This document shows positions 5,788 to 11,723 of a stretch of 11,723 nucleotides of DNA, piece by piece (positions within the stretch are counted from its first letter, which is position 1; the number at the start of each line of letters is the position of its first letter). The DNA comes from Chloroflexota bacterium (GTDB lineage Bacteria; Chloroflexota; Limnocylindria; Limnocylindrales; CSP1-4), in contig JANYAA010000146.1 in NCBI GenBank assembly GCA_025355255.1, positions 1 to 11,723 on the forward strand, read 5' to 3'. A model generated the notes under the pieces. The model ran no database searches. It was given only the letters and a program-made list of their open reading frames with translations, and was not told the origin of the DNA. The position numbers were made by a program, and so were the translations under genes.

Positions 5788-5809
5788 GGCTAGTAGCGCT
5801 CCCGCCGGA
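5788..5809. repeat. 22-bp direct repeat, copy 2 (functional helicase 3' end)
   Basis: Second exact copy of the 22-bp sequence; here it is the true end of the helicase gene, with stop TAG at 5792-5790. The copies start 254 bp apart in the same orientation. Confidence 0.9.
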
Positions 5810-8012
5810 CCATCACCTGGCGACCGCGGATGGTCGCGGCGCGTAGGGCGCCAATCACGCGATCCGCGGCAGCCTCGGGGACATCCACCAGCGAGAAGCC
5901 GTCCGCGATCTGGATGGCCCCGACGTCGCGGCCCGAGAGCCCCGCCTCATGCGTGATGGCGCCGACAAGGTCCGCCGGGCGCATACCGCCGGCACGGCCG
6001 AGGCCCACGAAGAGCCGGGTTGCGCCGCCAAGGCCGCCGGAGCCGCTGGCGGGGGGGCGCATCACGGGCCGACCCTCGGCGTCGTGCCACTCCGTGGCGC
6101 GGAACCCGCGGCGAGGGCCGGTGACGGCGCGCGGACCCAGGGTGTGCGGCGCCGGACGAGGCCCCATCGCGCGCTGCTGCTGGAACCCCTGCGGGTACCC
6201 CTGCTGATATCGCTCGTCACCGCTGGGCGGGAGCGGGGCACCGGTTTCGGGCGGCCGCTCCTGCCACTGCCGAGCGGGACCCGACTGCGGCTGCCCCTGC
6301 CATGGCTGCTGCGCCTGACCTTGCCACGGCTGCTCCATGCGGCCAAACGGCCGGCGAACCGGGCCTGGTCGGGCGCTATGCCCAAACGACGGCCCCGGGC
6401 CGGACGCGAACCCCCGCGAAGGCCCCGACGACGGCAGGAAAGCCTGCGACAGCTCAGCCGTGTCCTCCGCCCCGCGGGCTTCGGCATCGGCCTGCGCAAC
6501 CGCAGCCAGCGCGATCTCAAGCAGGCCAAACTCCTCGGCCAGCGGCTCCACGACGGCGCGGTAGCGGTCGTTGCGTCCCTCAGCGCCCGCGGTGAGCGCC
6601 TCACGCAGCGAACTGACCAGGAGCTCCATCCGCTTGGCGCGCAGGTCGGCCACCGTGGGCAGGCCGGCGATCTCCATCGGCCTCCCGATGACACGCTCAA
6701 TCTCGCGCATCAGCCGGGACTCGCGCGGCTCAACAAGGGTGATCGCCACGCCTTCGCGCCCCGCGCGGCCGGTTCGGCCAGTGCGGTGAACGTAGACCTC
6801 AGCGGAGCTTGGGACGTCGAAGTTGACGACATGGCTGACGTGGTCGATATCGAGACCGCGGGCGGCAACGTCCGTGGCGACCAGCACGTCCAGCGAGTGG
6901 TCGCGGAAGCGGGTCATGATCCGGTCGCGCTGCTCCTGCGCCAGACCACCGTGGAGGGCGGCGGCGTCACGGCCGCGGGCGGAGAGGGCTTCGGCAAGGT
7001 CGTCCACCTCGCCGCGGGTGCGGGCGAAGACCAGCGTGGCGGCGCCGTCTTCCAAATCCAGAATGCGGCCGAGGGCGGCGAGCTTGTCCTGACGACGCAC
7101 GACGTACGCGATGTGGCGGACGCGCACCTGCTCGCCGGCAACCTCGCGCTCCGCCTGCACGCGGACGCGCACGGGGTTCTGGAGATGACGCTCGGCCAGG
7201 CGGGCGATGGGCCCGGCGATGGTCGCCGAGAAGAGCGCGGTCCGGCGCGTTGTCGGCAGGGCGCTAAGGATCTTGTCGAGGTCGTCGGCGAAGCCCATGT
7301 CGAGCATCTCGTCGGCCTCGTCCAGGACCACGGTCTGGACCTCGTCAAAGCGCAGCGTGCCGCGGTCTATGTGGTCCACGGCGCGCCCGGGCGTCGCAAC
7401 GACGACGTCCACGCCGCGCGAGAGGCGGGCGAGCTGCGCGGTGATGGGCTGACCGCCGTATACGGGGACCACGCGACAGCCGATCTCGCGGCCGTACTTG
7501 TGAATTGCCTCGGCCACCTGCATGGCGAGCTCGCGCGTGGGCGTCAGCACGAGGGCCGTTGGGCGACTGCCGCGGCCGTCGCGGGGCACGCCGCGGTTGC
7601 CGGCCTCAGCGCCGGCCTCGCGGGCCTTGTCCATATTGATGGCCAGGGCCTGCAGGATGGGCAGCGCGAAGGCGGCGGTCTTGCCCGTGCCTGTGGGGGC
7701 TTCGGCGAGGAGGTCCCGTCCGGCGAGGAGCGGCGGGATGGCCGCGGCCTGGACCGGCGTGGGCTCCTCGTAGCCGAGGGCGGCGATGGTCCGCAGGATG
7801 CGCGGATCCAAGCCGAGCGCGGCAAAGCCGTCGACTTCGACCGTGTCGGCGGGATCGTCAGTGTCGGCGTCTGCGGGGCCGTCGTCGGCAGCGTCGTCGG
7901 CAGCGGCGGCGGTGGCGGCAGTGGAGTCCGCGGCGGTTTCGGCGGCGTCCTCAGACGCGGCAAGAGTCTCGGGTTCGGTCGGGTCGGCGTCGTGGCCGGA
8001 GTCAGAATTCAC
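5790..8012 (-). CDS. deaD: DEAD-box ATP-dependent RNA helicase, DeaD/CsdA type
   Basis: 740-aa RNA helicase, presumably acting on structured RNA or in ribosome assembly, as DeaD/CsdA proteins do. An acidic Ala/Asp-rich tail (1-60) precedes the core: Q motif PTPVQ (84-88), Walker A APTGTGKT (105-112), Ia PTREL (158-162), Ib TPGR (207-210), DEAD (231-234), SAT (262-264), V ATDVAARGLD (379-388) and VI HRTGRTGR (409-416). A low-complexity Gln/Pro/Trp/Gly linker (about 525-660) carries two QPWQGQ units (561, 569). A DbpA-type RNA-binding domain (about 665-738) starts TRLFVGLGR and ends VMVRRERY. The start is the GTG at 8012, with TACCCT 6 nt upstream. The frame stays open to 8438, but that stretch is non-conserved filler. 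The gene symbol marks the subfamily, not proven orthology. Confidence 0.95.
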   Translation of the reverse strand: MNSDSGHDADPTEPETLAASEDAAETAADSTAATAAAADDAADDGPADADTDDPADTVEVDGFAALGLDPRILRTIAALGYEEPTPVQAAAIPPLLAGRDLLAEAPTGTGKTAAFALPILQALAINMDKAREAGAEAGNRGVPRDGRGSRPTALVLTPTRELAMQVAEAIHKYGREIGCRVVPVYGGQPITAQLARLSRGVDVVVATPGRAVDHIDRGTLRFDEVQTVVLDEADEMLDMGFADDLDKILSALPTTRRTALFSATIAGPIARLAERHLQNPVRVRVQAEREVAGEQVRVRHIAYVVRRQDKLAALGRILDLEDGAATLVFARTRGEVDDLAEALSARGRDAAALHGGLAQEQRDRIMTRFRDHSLDVLVATDVAARGLDIDHVSHVVNFDVPSSAEVYVHRTGRTGRAGREGVAITLVEPRESRLMREIERVIGRPMEIAGLPTVADLRAKRMELLVSSLREALTAGAEGRNDRYRAVVEPLAEEFGLLEIALAAVAQADAEARGAEDTAELSQAFLPSSGPSRGFASGPGPSFGHSARPGPVRRPFGRMEQPWQGQAQQPWQGQPQSGPARQWQERPPETGAPLPPSGDERYQQGYPQGFQQQRAMGPRPAPHTLGPRAVTGPRRGFRATEWHDAEGRPVMRPPASGSGGLGGATRLFVGLGRAGGMRPADLVGAITHEAGLSGRDVGAIQIADGFSLVDVPEAAADRVIGALRAATIRGRQVMVRRERY

Positions 8013-8018
8013 GCCTAG

Positions 8019-8024
8019 AGGGTA
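8019..8024 (-). promoter_or_regulatory. Leaderless -10 box of the helicase gene
   Basis: On the minus strand TACCCT (8024-8019) is 6 nt (CTAGGC) before the GTG start at 8012. This supports GTG as the real start even though the frame remains open upstream. I see no consensus -35 at 16-18 bp. Confidence 0.45.
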
Positions 8025-8095
8025 TCCCCGATCGGCAGACCACCCGCACGGCACAGGTTGCGGGGCCGCTCGCGCTCGCCGTATTCCAAGAGGGG

Positions 8096-8275
8096 CTATC
8101 CGGACGCGAACTCTGGTCTGGCTGCGCCCTTGTCGCGCGGCGGATGACTTGTAGGAATATTCCAGCGCTCTGGCCAGCAGCTTCCGTGCCCGAACACGGC
8201 AAACGACAGCACGCCACCAAGGAAACTCACGGGATAGTCCTTCTTGGAGTGCGGCGCCAACGCGTACGAGGCCAT
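8096..8275 (-). CDS. Doubtful 59-aa ORF between the gltD remnant and the helicase
   Basis: ATG at 8275 to TAG at 8098-8096. The first 30 residues (beginning MASYALAPHSKKDYPV, then the hydrophobic SFLGGVLSFAVFG) use mostly G/C-ending codons and could be coding; the second half does not. There is no Shine-Dalgarno sequence or -10 box at the usual distance. It may be a remnant of a longer gene or chance. The rest of 8013-8299 holds only the helicase promoter and a 10-bp palindrome ggaatattcc at 8154-8163. Confidence 0.2.
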   Translation of the reverse strand: MASYALAPHSKKDYPVSFLGGVLSFAVFGHGSCWPERWNIPTSHPPRDKGAARPEFASG

Positions 8276-8299
8276 GGCAGCGGGCGCGCCGGCCCCCGG

Positions 8300-8407
8300 C
8301 TACGGCTGCAGCACCGTCTCGCCGTGCATCTCGAAGCGGTCCACGCCGATCGCGGCCGTGCGGTCCTCGCGGATGGCCCAGGCGACGAGCGACTGGCCGC
8401 GGGCGCA
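8300..8407 (-). pseudogene. gltD: Detached copy of the gltD 3' end (36 codons including stop)
   Basis: On the minus strand this reads CARGQSLVAWAIREDRTAAI, then [15 protein letters not shown] and TAG, the conserved C-terminus of the glutamate synthase small subunit (the final NAD(P)H/FAD-domain helix). Against the resident gltD end at 10238-10345 it has 12 mismatches in 108 bases and no indels. Four of 35 residues differ and 7 of the 12 base changes are silent, so the two copies diverged under selection as working genes. Nothing gltD-like continues above 8407, so it is a remnant without a start. It sits at the downstream border of the exported-protein cassette. Confidence 0.9.
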
Positions 8408-8427
8408 CCCCGACAAGCTCGTACTGC

Positions 8428-8464
8428 CGCCGTCGCAACCGGTACCAAGCCAGTTGCGACCGCG
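8428..8464 (-). terminator. Hairpin downstream of the exported-protein cassette
   Basis: GTCGCAAC (8432-8439) and GTTGCGAC (8453-8460) are exactly complementary around a 13-nt loop. After one mismatch, three more pairs (8428-8430 with 8462-8464) extend the stem to 11 of 12 pairs. It lies 10 nt past the stop of the last cassette gene. No U-tract follows, so it would be an unusual intrinsic terminator or an RNA-stabilising 3' hairpin. Confidence 0.5.
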
Positions 8465-8474
8465 ATGTAGATCG

Positions 8475-8927
8475 TCAGTTGGACGCCAACGGGACGTCAG
8501 CCATGATCTTGAGATCCCCGATGAAGGCCCCGGTTGCAGGATCGTAGAAGGCCACCCCGCATGCCACCCGTACCAGCCTGCTGCCGGCCTGCTCGACTGG
8601 ACCCCCGGCGGCCTGAGCCATGTCGTCGGTGAAGGTGATTGCCGTGGCAGTCTGGCCGTCGATCGCGGGCACGGTGGGGGCGTGGATCTTCACGCTCGTC
8701 CTATCGAGGATTACGGCATTCGGGTACTCGCCGGCGAACGCATCCACCGCCCCACCGATCGCGGACGGGCCCGCAGACGACAACTGGAGCGGGACTTCGG
8801 CATCGATCCTCGCGATGGAACAGGACGCGGCGGCGTTGGCCTGCGAGGGACCCGCGACGGCCACGGCCAGCAGAATGACGGCGGACGAGGCTCCCAGCGA
8901 GAGCAGGAGCAATCGGATCTTGTTCAT
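8475..8927 (-). CDS. Secreted protein of unknown function, second gene of an exported pair
   Basis: 150-aa protein starting at the ATG that overlaps the previous gene's TGA (ATGA), so it is translationally coupled. A long signal peptide (MNKIRLLLLSLGASSAVILL, then AVAVAGPSQANA) probably ends near residue 33, with cleavage around ANA-A. The mature part (beginning ASCSIARIDAEVPLQLSS) is about 115 aa, has two Cys (CSIAR and VACGVAF) that could form one disulfide, and has no recognised domain. A longer in-frame start at 9014 would lie inside the neighbouring gene and bury the signal peptide, so it was not used. Its G+C content and codons look less extreme than those of the flanking housekeeping genes. 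A role alongside the upstream secreted protein is inferred from coupling only. Confidence 0.8.
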   Translation of the reverse strand: MNKIRLLLLSLGASSAVILLAVAVAGPSQANAAASCSIARIDAEVPLQLSSAGPSAIGGAVDAFAGEYPNAVILDRTSVKIHAPTVPAIDGQTATAITFTDDMAQAAGGPVEQAGSRLVRVACGVAFYDPATGAFIGDLKIMADVPLASN

Positions 8928-9601
8928 TGGCAGAGGTCCCAAGTGTCGACATTGATCGCGTTGCCACTTGTGGCGAAGTGCTGGTTCGTCCAGGATACGG
9001 CGCCGGAATACCACTGCCAGCTGCCGGCCGGGTTCATGATTTGATCGTTGCGGTAGGTCTCGTGGCTGGAGGCCTCGCCCATCAGCTGGCTGGACATCGA
9101 GTAAATCTCAGAGTAGATCTCGGCTCCGGAAGGAGTCCAAGACAGTGTGGTCCAGAACTTGTCGACGCCGTCTACATACACGTGGAATTGATGGTTCCCC
9201 GGGTCAAACCCAACGGAGTAGTCGTGGACCGTTCCCACGGCGTATGCGAGCAGATCCCCCCACACTAGCGAGTGGCCCGGCTGCTGGAGTTGGTACTGCG
9301 TCGTCCGGTTGCCGGCTGCCTTGTACGGGCCGATCTGCGCCCACTCGAAGTTGGCCGGTCCCGGGAGCATGACCCAGGCATAGCTGAAGCCGTTGCCTGT
9401 GACGAGCGGGTCGTAGGTCTTGATCGTCGAGTAGACAGCCCGCGCACTCGCCAAGGTGTCGGTCGAGCCCATCCATAGGTACGAGTTCGTTGCGCTGCGA
9501 TGCATGTCAGAGCACGCGGCAGACGCACCCGCTGGCGGGGCGAGGAGCATCGAGGCGGTCAGCAGTCCGGCGCCCGTGAGCCGGCCAAGGGTCCTTGTCA
9601 T
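8924..9601 (-). CDS. Secreted protein of unknown function, first gene of an exported pair
   Basis: 225-aa protein with a Sec signal peptide (MTRTLGRLTGAGLLTASMLL, APPAGASA), predicted cleavage near residue 28-29. The mature part is rich in Tyr, Trp, Ser and Asn with little charge. It contains YAWVMLPGPANFEWAQIGPY and HQFHVYVDGVDKFWTTLSW, suggesting a beta-sandwich of the concanavalin-like kind, though no family is certain. Its only Cys residues, C30 near the mature N-terminus and C224 next to the last residue, could link the two ends. The start has GGGGGA 5 nt upstream, unlike the leaderless neighbours. G+C is low (104 of 180 bases at 9061-9240, versus 128 of 180 in the helicase at 7321-7500), which points to acquisition from elsewhere. 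Confidence 0.85.
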   Translation of the reverse strand: MTRTLGRLTGAGLLTASMLLAPPAGASAACSDMHRSATNSYLWMGSTDTLASARAVYSTIKTYDPLVTGNGFSYAWVMLPGPANFEWAQIGPYKAAGNRTTQYQLQQPGHSLVWGDLLAYAVGTVHDYSVGFDPGNHQFHVYVDGVDKFWTTLSWTPSGAEIYSEIYSMSSQLMGEASSHETYRNDQIMNPAGSWQWYSGAVSWTNQHFATSGNAINVDTWDLCQ

Positions 9602-9683
9602 GGTTGTCCCCCAGGAACAGATGAAGGTCTCGAGTACGTAACCGACGGCGTAGTGGGTTCCGCGATGGCATCCCGCTTTGCGA

Positions 9684-10174
9684 CTACGGACTGCACGTAG
9701 CTGCAGGAGCGGGCCCGACGGGCGCTCCGGTGGCGTCCTCGTACGCGCCGCTTGCCCTCAGGACGATGGTCCGGGGACCGTCGACCCCAGTCTCGTGAAA
9801 TGTCGCGATGAGCTTGGCGTCGGAGCGCACGAGGTCGACCGTCCAAGGCAGTGGCGGCATGGACGCGGGATCGACCGCGACCAGGTAGGTGTCGGACACG
9901 ACCTGGCAGGCGAGGTGTCCGACCACCTTCCCGTTAATCTGGACATCGGCCGCAGGGCCATCGATGTTGTAGACCGTCAGCGTGAACGGTGCCCGCGAGA
10001 CGGCGGCTCGCTTGCATCGGTAGCGCTCGGGGCTGTCGACGGCGGCGCGGAGCAGGCCACTGCGAGCCCGACAGTTGCCACGAGCAACCCAATTGCGATC
10101 GCCCAGCGAGCCGTTGCAGCCAGCAGATCGATCCGGCCCATCGGCGGCACGCGATGTCCCCCATCGGTTTCCAC
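9684..10174 (-). pseudogene. Lipoprotein gene broken by a one-base frameshift
   Basis: The first part (GTG at 10174) gives a 65-aa product with a hydrophobic segment and lipobox LAVAC (Cys41), followed by a Ser/Pro/Ala linker; it stops at 9977. The body (APFTLTVYNIDGPAADVQIN, GKVVGHLACQ and on to TCSP) continues in another frame to TAG at 9686-9684. Adding one G to the GGG at 9994-9992 joins both parts into a single 163-aa protein. The mature domain, with two Cys, is not recognised. The promoter fits this start exactly: TTGACA-17 bp-CAGCTT-6 nt-GTG. An ATG at 10141 is the alternative start. Either a real pseudogene or a sequencing indel; the G-run context favours the latter slightly. Confidence 0.75.
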
Positions 10175-10180
10175 CAGCGG

Positions 10181-10209
10181 AAGCTGGGCGGTAGCAATCG
10201 ATCTGTCAA
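10181..10209 (-). promoter_or_regulatory. Promoter of the cassette's lipoprotein gene
   Basis: On the minus strand: perfect -35 TTGACA (10209-10204), a 17-bp spacer, CAGCTT (10186-10181), then 6 nt to the GTG at 10174. It directly follows the hairpin after gltD, so the cassette appears to be transcribed independently of gltD. Confidence 0.6.
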
Positions 10210-10232
10210 GGGCCGATTCTCCCTCGGCGCCC
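10210..10232 (-). terminator. Candidate gltD terminator hairpin
   Basis: On the minus strand GGG-(CG bulge)-CCGA pairs with TCGG-CCC around a 7-nt loop, 5 nt after the gltD stop. Only TT follows before the next promoter's -35 (TTGACA), so termination strength is uncertain. Confidence 0.4.
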
Positions 10233-10237
10233 GTGAG

Positions 10238-10345
10238 CTACGGCTGCAGCACGGTCTCGCCATGCATCAGGAAGCGGTCCACGCCGATGGCGGCCGTGCG
10301 GCCCTCGCGGATCGCCCAGACCACAAGGGACTGGCCGCGGACGCA
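10238..10345. repeat. Long imperfect direct repeat, copy 2 (resident gltD 3' end)
   Basis: This 108-bp segment is the in-place end of gltD and pairs with the detached copy at 8300-8407: 96 of 108 bases identical, same orientation, copies 1938 bp apart start to start. The repeats enclose 8408-10237, the cassette of exported-protein genes. Confidence 0.9.
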
Positions 10346-11723
10346 GTCGCCCGCCGCAAAGACGCCCGGCACGGAGGTCATGCGGTCAGCCCCCGTGCGG
10401 ACGTTGCCGCGCGCGTCCAGCTCGCAGCCGAAGGCGCGGGGCAGCGCGGGCTCCGGGCCGAGGAAGCCATCGCCAGCAGCACGAGGTCCGCCGGGATCAC
10501 CTGCGACGTGCCCGGGACCTCGCGCAACTCGCCGCGCCCATCGGCGCCCACGCCAAACGCGGCATCTGCTGTCTCAATGCCCACAACGCGCTCGTTGCGC
10601 CCGATGAAGCGCCGCGTCGTGGTGGAGTATCGTCGGGGATCGGAGCCCCACAACGCCGCCGCCTCCTCCTGCCCGTAATCCATCTTGTAAACCTTGGGCC
10701 ACTCCGGCCACGGGTTCGACGGCTGCCGCGTGTCGGGCGGGCGCGCCATGATCTCCAGCTGCGTGACCGAGCGCGCGCCCTGGCGGATTGCTGTGCCAAC
10801 ACAGTCGGTGCCGGTGTCGCCGCCGCCAATGACGACGACGTCGCGCCCGGCAGCGTCGATGGGCGCCTCGGCATCGGCCCCGCCGTCAAGCAGCCGCCGC
10901 GTGTTGCCGCGCAAGTAGCTCATCGCCAGTTGGATGCCGCCCAGCTCGCGCCCTGGGATGGGCAGGTCGCGCGCGACGGCGGCGCCGGTCGCCAGGACCA
11001 CGGCGTCATACGTCGAGAGCAGCTCCGAAGCTGCCACGTCCGCGCCAACGGTGACGCCGGTGACAAACGTGATGCCCTCGGCCGCCATCAGCGCAACGCG
11101 CCGGTCAACGACGCCCTTGTCGAGCTTCATGTTGGGGATGCCGTACATCAGCAGCCCGCCGATGCGGCCGGCGCGCTCGTACACGGTGACCGAATGGCCG
11201 GCAGAATTGAGCTGTGCCGCCGCCGCAAGACCCGACGGGCCGCTGCCGATGACGGCAACCTTCTTGCCTGTGCGCGTGAGCGGCGGGCGCGGCGTGATCC
11301 AGCCCTCGGCGAAGGCGCGGTCCGCGATCTCTACCTCGATGGTCTTGATGGCCACGGGATCGGCCCCGCCAACGCCCACCGTGCAGGACCCCTCGCAGGG
11401 CGCCGGGCAGACGCGCCCGGTGAACTCCGGGAAGTTGTTTGTGTACGCGAGGCGGATGGCCGCCTCCTGCCACTGCCCGCGGTAGACCAGATCGTTCCAC
11501 TCGGGGATCAGGTTGTTGATGGGACAGCCCGAGGCCATACCGCTGATGAGCGTCCCCGTGTGGCAGAACGGCACGCCGCAGTCCATGCAGCGCGCGGCCT
11601 GCTGGTTGAGCGTGGCCTCCTCGAGGCGCGGGTGCGACTCGCTCCAGTCCTGGATCCGCTCCAGCGGCGGCCGCGACGGCATGGACCTGCGGACGAACTC
11701 CACAAAGCCTGTGGGCTTGCCCA
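10238..11723 (-). CDS. gltD: Glutamate synthase small subunit GltD, frameshifted near the 3' end
   Basis: Supplies NADPH electrons to the large subunit for making glutamate from glutamine and 2-oxoglutarate. The last window bases read (A)TG GGC AAG CCC ACA GGC, the usual MGKPTGF start, so the start codon begins one base beyond the window (inference). Numbered from it: iron-sulfur Cys at 46, 49, 54, 67 and 106, 110, 114; FAD motif VIGSGPSG (158-165); NADPH motif [11 protein letters not shown] (297-307). After M419 (ATG at 10470-10468) the expected GFLGPEP reads ASSARSP: one G is missing from ATGGGCTTC, and the frame stops at 10378. Restoring it gives 495 aa, with [19 protein letters not shown] and ending ETVLQP at TAG 10240-10238. 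gltB is expected beyond the right edge. A homologous Fe-S oxidoreductase such as a PreT-like protein is less likely. Confidence 0.93.

Follow-up and report, generated by a model that had tools for sequence, protein, structure and literature searches.

A repeated gltD 3' end around three exported-protein genes in a Chloroflexota genome, probably a relic of acquired DNA

Integrative elements of the pSAM2/AICE type carry RepSA, Xis and an integrase and reside at tRNA genes. The 15-kb prophage e14 of E. coli is integrated in the 3' part of a protein-coding gene, icd. According to the passages on e14 in a review, the element supplies the end of icd, and the old end, 163 bp in length, stays on the far side as a duplicated pseudo-end (PMC6379469). 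In the T6SS clusters of Vibrio, displaced 3' ends of effector genes occur together with orphan immunity genes. The sections of the paper that describe these clusters explain them by one-sided homology combined with illegitimate joining (PMC5361080).

Here we describe a repeated gene end in an uncultured Chloroflexota bacterium. The window, i.e., the whole stretch of DNA that was analysed, is the entire contig G000:C300 (11,723 bp). It belongs to a metagenome-assembled genome (MAG) of 2.73 Mb in 505 contigs, with an estimated completeness of 83%; the assembled sequence was our sole data. Read along the minus strand, the order is gltD, its end copy B, three genes of exported proteins (the cassette), a second gltD end (copy A), a 281-bp spacer and a DEAD-box helicase gene. 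We regard the repeat and the cassette as probably a genuine relic of acquired DNA, of modest interest. The features are as follows:

5790 to 8018, minus strand: DEAD-box helicase, the usual downstream neighbour of gltD in the genus
8019 to 8299, no strand: spacer between A and the helicase; in relatives it found no match but one of 15 bases, at chance level
8300 to 8407, minus strand: end copy A, a displaced second gltD end, apparently decaying; 96/108 identical to B, with all five replacement differences
8475 to 8933, minus strand: cassette gene 3, encoding an exported protein with no assigned function; 55% to the third cassette gene of the congener G008
8924 to 9601, minus strand: cassette gene 2, exported protein of 225 aa with a predicted glutamic-peptidase (eqolisin/neprosin) fold
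9684 to 10174, minus strand: cassette gene 1, lipoprotein-like, split across two frames at about 10,000-10,050; 65% match to the G008 homologue over its residues 49-152
10238 to 10345, minus strand: end copy B, the last 35 codons and stop of gltD, joined to the main gltD; 92.6% to the gltD end of the congener G007
10346 to 11723 (contig end), minus strand: main gltD with Fer4_20 and Pyr_redox_2 domains; 88% to G007 with one gap; frame broken near 10,467

As far as the review passages describe e14 in icd, the layout of the window has the same topology (PMC6379469). Unlike e14, the window has 1.83 kb between the copies, the target is gltD, and no integrase was recognised. The likeness to the described Vibrio clusters is that an incoming module leaves an old gene 3' end displaced downstream; there, however, toxin-immunity pairs form serial arrays, whereas here a housekeeping gene and one insertion are concerned (PMC5361080). 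The initial annotation had called a protein-coding target unusual, which e14 in icd with its 163-bp duplicated end contradicts (PMC6379469). The kind of structure looks known from phage-like elements, while gltD looks new as a target gene; we found no literature that joins gltD, an integration site and a genomic island.

The repeat itself was reproduced as annotated. Both copies read on the minus strand, and each consists of the final 35 gltD codons and the stop. An ungapped comparison gives 96 identical bases of 108 and 12 differences, no indels among them; our recount agrees that seven of the 12 are silent. The copies enclose 1830 bp with the three exported-protein genes, as had been claimed, so that a direct repeat of the end of the target gene is present at both borders of the cassette. 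A gapped alignment covers 121 columns at 86.8% identity and runs about 12 bases beyond the stop codon; the edge of the repeat is thus near the stop codon and not exactly at it. The longest run of identical bases shared by A and B is shorter than 20. With A and B masked, B reaches no more than 53/108 on the plus strand and 52/108 on the minus strand in ungapped comparison with the rest of the window. B is continuous with the main gltD, yet comparison with G007 shows a one-base shift of the gltD frame near 10,467, which the initial annotation did not mention. Together with the break in cassette gene 1, this makes two frame breaks within about 500 bases, each either genuine or due to an error in the consensus. 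In the same contig, the frames of the helicase and PAC2 genes are open.

The site between gltD and the helicase was compared in relatives, using the genus set (our genome and 11 congeners) and a family set of 107 genomes, of which many are incomplete. At the DNA level gltD matched 43 of 61 genomes, many of them just by short and probably paralogous stretches, and the detailed comparison covered 13 loci of relatives. The initial annotation had proposed a search for empty sites, and these exist: in six of the 11 congeners (G002, G003, G004, G005, G007 and G009, all of other species) the same helicase comes next after gltD, and these loci show neither the cassette proteins nor a second long match to the gltD end. 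As to the other five, gltD and the helicase are on separate contigs in G010, the gltD contig of G006 stops just behind the gene, G011 has gltD with only short helicase matches, and G001 and G008 have no match to the gltD end and only partial or short matches to the helicase. The cassette-free sites indicate that the helicase ordinarily stands next to the gltD end and that A is a leftover end. Across the family set, a search with the 35-residue gltD end gave matches in 44 of the 107 genomes including our own, and only our own has two at one locus.

A conserved helicase motif lies 141 bp behind the gltD stop in G004, 184 bp in G002, 486 bp in G003, 988 bp in G007 and 2,011 bp in G005; in our genome it lies 2,412 bp from B and 474 bp from A. 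In G009, whose spacer is short like those of G002 and G004, a variant motif follows the gltD stop at about 185 bp. Other cargo behind gltD, the second thing proposed for inspection, was also found. The G007 spacer holds a different ORF of 106 aa, lipoprotein-like; that of G005 (L038, G005:C5) holds a 590-aa ORF of exported type on the opposite strand, and that of G003 (L044, G003:C75) an apparent remnant of the latter (the G003 gltD contains a run of 100 N). By eye, several near-identical short motifs of the type ATCACnnnnGTGAT are seen in both orientations in the 725-bp spacer of G007 (L033, G007:C24).

An apparent second gltD end in G006 was rejected, being an exact overlap of two contigs: the end of G006:C270 (L036) and the start of C371 (L096) share exactly 141 bases at the gltD end. 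The assembly graph therefore branches at the gltD end in that metagenome, whose strains may differ behind gltD.

The two copies differ in what their substitutions do to the protein. We polarised the differences against 13 relatives; several of these have shorter ends, so that some of them are out of register beyond about codon 27. All five replacement differences are in A and affect four residues, three of which are invariant in the 13 relatives. A has V to A at codon 9 (V in 13/13), G to D at codon 15 (G in 13/13) and L to E, through two bases, at codon 26 (L in 13/13). At codon 2, where A has V to A, the relatives have V or M in eight of 12 readable cases and S or T in four. B has no replacement change at the conserved residues where A differs. 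The silent differences are of mixed polarity: the minority base is that of B at positions 18, 84 and 93 and that of A at 57; positions 21 and 24 vary widely, and at 33 A has the base of G007, which the 12 other relatives lack.

A random change in the 108-bp end would be a replacement 74% of the time. With the changes split eight to A and four to B, the five replacements among the eight of A fit neutral decay (p 0.36), and the absence of replacements among the four of B does not (p 0.005). If position 33 is moved to A, the count for B is 0/3 and p is about 0.02 (calculated by hand). Fisher's test of the asymmetry between A and B gives p 0.08. In this small test A looks unconstrained and B constrained, a result that disfavours both a pair of living alleles and a chimeric assembly of two strains. 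Because all replacement changes are in A and mostly at invariant residues, A looks, judged by its substitutions, like an old copy decaying after the loss of its gene. The claim that seven silent differences point to diverged working alleles fails on the same one-sidedness; we rejected such alleles as the sole origin of the differences, and the hypothesis is not needed. The suggested tree of the gltD ends was built (13 rows by 99 columns), but nine of its ten inner branches are left open, and hence the resident copy cannot be told from it. Over 99 bases A and B differ at 12 positions, B and G007 at eight, and A and G007 at 13. In contigs derived from metagenomes, replacement changes confined to one copy can mark that copy as an old displaced end, as distinct from a chimera or a pair of living alleles.

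We propose that gltD received, in its last part, an insertion of about 1.9 kb comprising a gltD 3' end (B) and the three exported-protein genes. The newly arrived B would have completed gltD, and the original end A would have been pushed to the far side, beside the helicase, where it would then have decayed. From the repeat, the cassette-free sites and the one-sided decay of A we infer a single insertion event. This agrees with the initial proposal of an element that inserted at the 3' end of a gene with a replacement end and left the old end beyond the far border. The vehicle is more weakly inferred. It may have been an integrative element with the gltD 3' end as its attachment site, in the manner of e14 in icd, whose integrase would since have been lost; we give this vehicle a little less than an even chance. 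The initial annotation saw no integrase, and indeed a domain scan of the four cassette ORFs recognised none, nor did inspection of the spacer translations by eye. Site-specific integration is therefore unproven, and we do not claim membership in the integrase-bearing class. If the proposal is true, gltD can be counted, in the broad sense, among the protein-coding genes that have acquired DNA between two copies of their 3' end.

The cargo gives some information on possible vehicles. Glutamic peptidases (eqolisins, neprosin) are characterised by a catalytic Gln/Glu or Glu/Glu pair. The predicted model of the gene-2 protein has the fold of these peptidases (pLDDT 77.6), and its residues Q89 and E165, invariant in 11/11 sequences, may be the catalytic pair. 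The protein is just 13-15% identical to glutamic peptidases and has no Pfam family reaching the cut-off. From the predicted fold alone, gene 2 probably encodes a secreted peptidase of the glutamic type. Its relatives comprise eight protein clusters, that of the window included, with three loci in named genomes; none were found among viral contigs or plasmids.

In G008 a cassette with about 60% identity to that of the window is located between a tatD-like gene and groES. In L050 (G008:C8), at about 230-2337, the cassette and a different end of the tatD-like gene replace the plain spacer of G007 (L075, G007:C239). The flanks of the exchanged region are 98.7-99.3% identical, and a CIRCE-like block is only 80% alike. 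It looks like a swap of the whole intergenic block by homologous recombination. A repeated tatD end in G008 was considered and rejected, as the repeat search gave just short, imperfect repeats. Two gene spacers of the genus, gltD-helicase and tatD-groES, hold different genes from species to species, so that the turnover of small exported-protein genes can be compared directly.

Homologues of genes 1 and 2 also occur in G076, a member of another genus of the same family (L054, G076:C35, 212-7083), along with RepSA, an HTH protein and a tyrosine integrase. The ends of that region are two 18-bp copies of the anticodon region of tRNA-Leu. By its gene content and ends the region appears to be an AICE-like element in a Chloroflexota MAG; in the parts of the pSAM2/RepSA literature that we found, Chloroflexi are not named. 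Two of the cassette genes thus have homologues in a setting like that of pSAM2/AICE elements. Unlike these elements, the window has no recognised backbone (RepSA, Xis, integrase or tRNA attachment site) and its target is not a tRNA gene. A tRNA-Val beside a set of cassette genes in G128, of the same family, looked spurious by eye and was discarded. It is conceivable, though we think it unlikely, that the secreted peptidase-fold protein, the lipoprotein and the third exported protein form a mobile module in Chloroflexota with several means of transfer: tRNA-targeting elements that carry it as cargo, exchange of the tatD-groES block, and insertion at gltD with no recognised integrase. Such a module would land behind conserved genes and at times supply their last codons.

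An integrative element is favoured by the topology shared with e14 in icd, by the G076 element, in which relatives of the cargo sit, and by a weak gene-2 homologue of our own genome that is enclosed by two tRNA-Lys copies, one partial and one complete. Against it, the G008 cassette, the closest one with known surroundings, is elsewhere, in a swap-like block with no long border repeats, and the repeat is seen in one genome only, where gltD and gene 1 are frame-broken. We place it somewhat ahead of a one-sided homologous import, through homology-facilitated illegitimate recombination or a single crossover, which is possible but rather unlikely. Here gltD and the cassette of a related donor would have paired with the resident gltD and been joined with no homology 108 bp before the resident stop, leaving A behind and making an integrase unnecessary. 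None was recognised in the cassette ORFs or spacers, the intergenic block swapped between G007 and G008 carries the cassette in G008 between flanks of 98.7-99.3% identity, and displaced 3' ends of the same layout are explained in this way in the relevant sections of the Vibrio paper (PMC5361080). The same sections call the process rare (PMC5361080), and the import needs a donor with gltD beside the cassette; none was seen among the 107 family genomes, many of which are incomplete. The identity to G007 along gltD has no visible change, which neither supports nor excludes such an import.

That the contig fuses pieces of two strains at the gltD end seems improbable to us. In favour of this, the structure is seen in a lone MAG contig in which two reading frames are broken near the end, and the exact 141-base overlap in G006 indicates that assemblies in the genus can branch at this place. 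But a chimera would fuse two working ends, and A has L to E, G to D and V to A at residues invariant in 13/13 relatives; the identical runs of A and B, all below 20 bases, also speak against it. The gene-2 protein is recorded on two contigs, though the second may copy the same record. Least probable, by a slight degree, is a local duplication separate from the arrival of the cassette, in which a gltD end of about 110-120 bp was copied past a settled cassette, e.g., by template switching. The repeat is short, its edges are arbitrary save for their nearness to the stop codon, and the decay of A would suit any old duplication. This account requires two events, however, and gives no reason for the place of the copy exactly at the cassette border. 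Moreover, self-comparison of 42 other loci of our genome (248,743 bases, of which 221,014, or about 8% of the assembly, are readable) found no other duplicated gene end.

Those 42 loci contain four repeats of at least 50 bp: two are inside long ORFs, one is of low complexity by eye, and one is a tRNA-Lys repeat. Self-comparison of 41 loci of relatives (380,739 bases) gave six repeat pairs in five loci. The tRNA-Lys repeat (L059, G000:C161, 486-5276) is formed by two tRNA-Lys copies, one partial and one complete, that have 58 identical bases in common and flank about 4.6 kb; its unit is the 5' half of the tRNA with 21 bases upstream. The island between the two copies holds a Mutator-family transposase and a weak homologue of gene 2.
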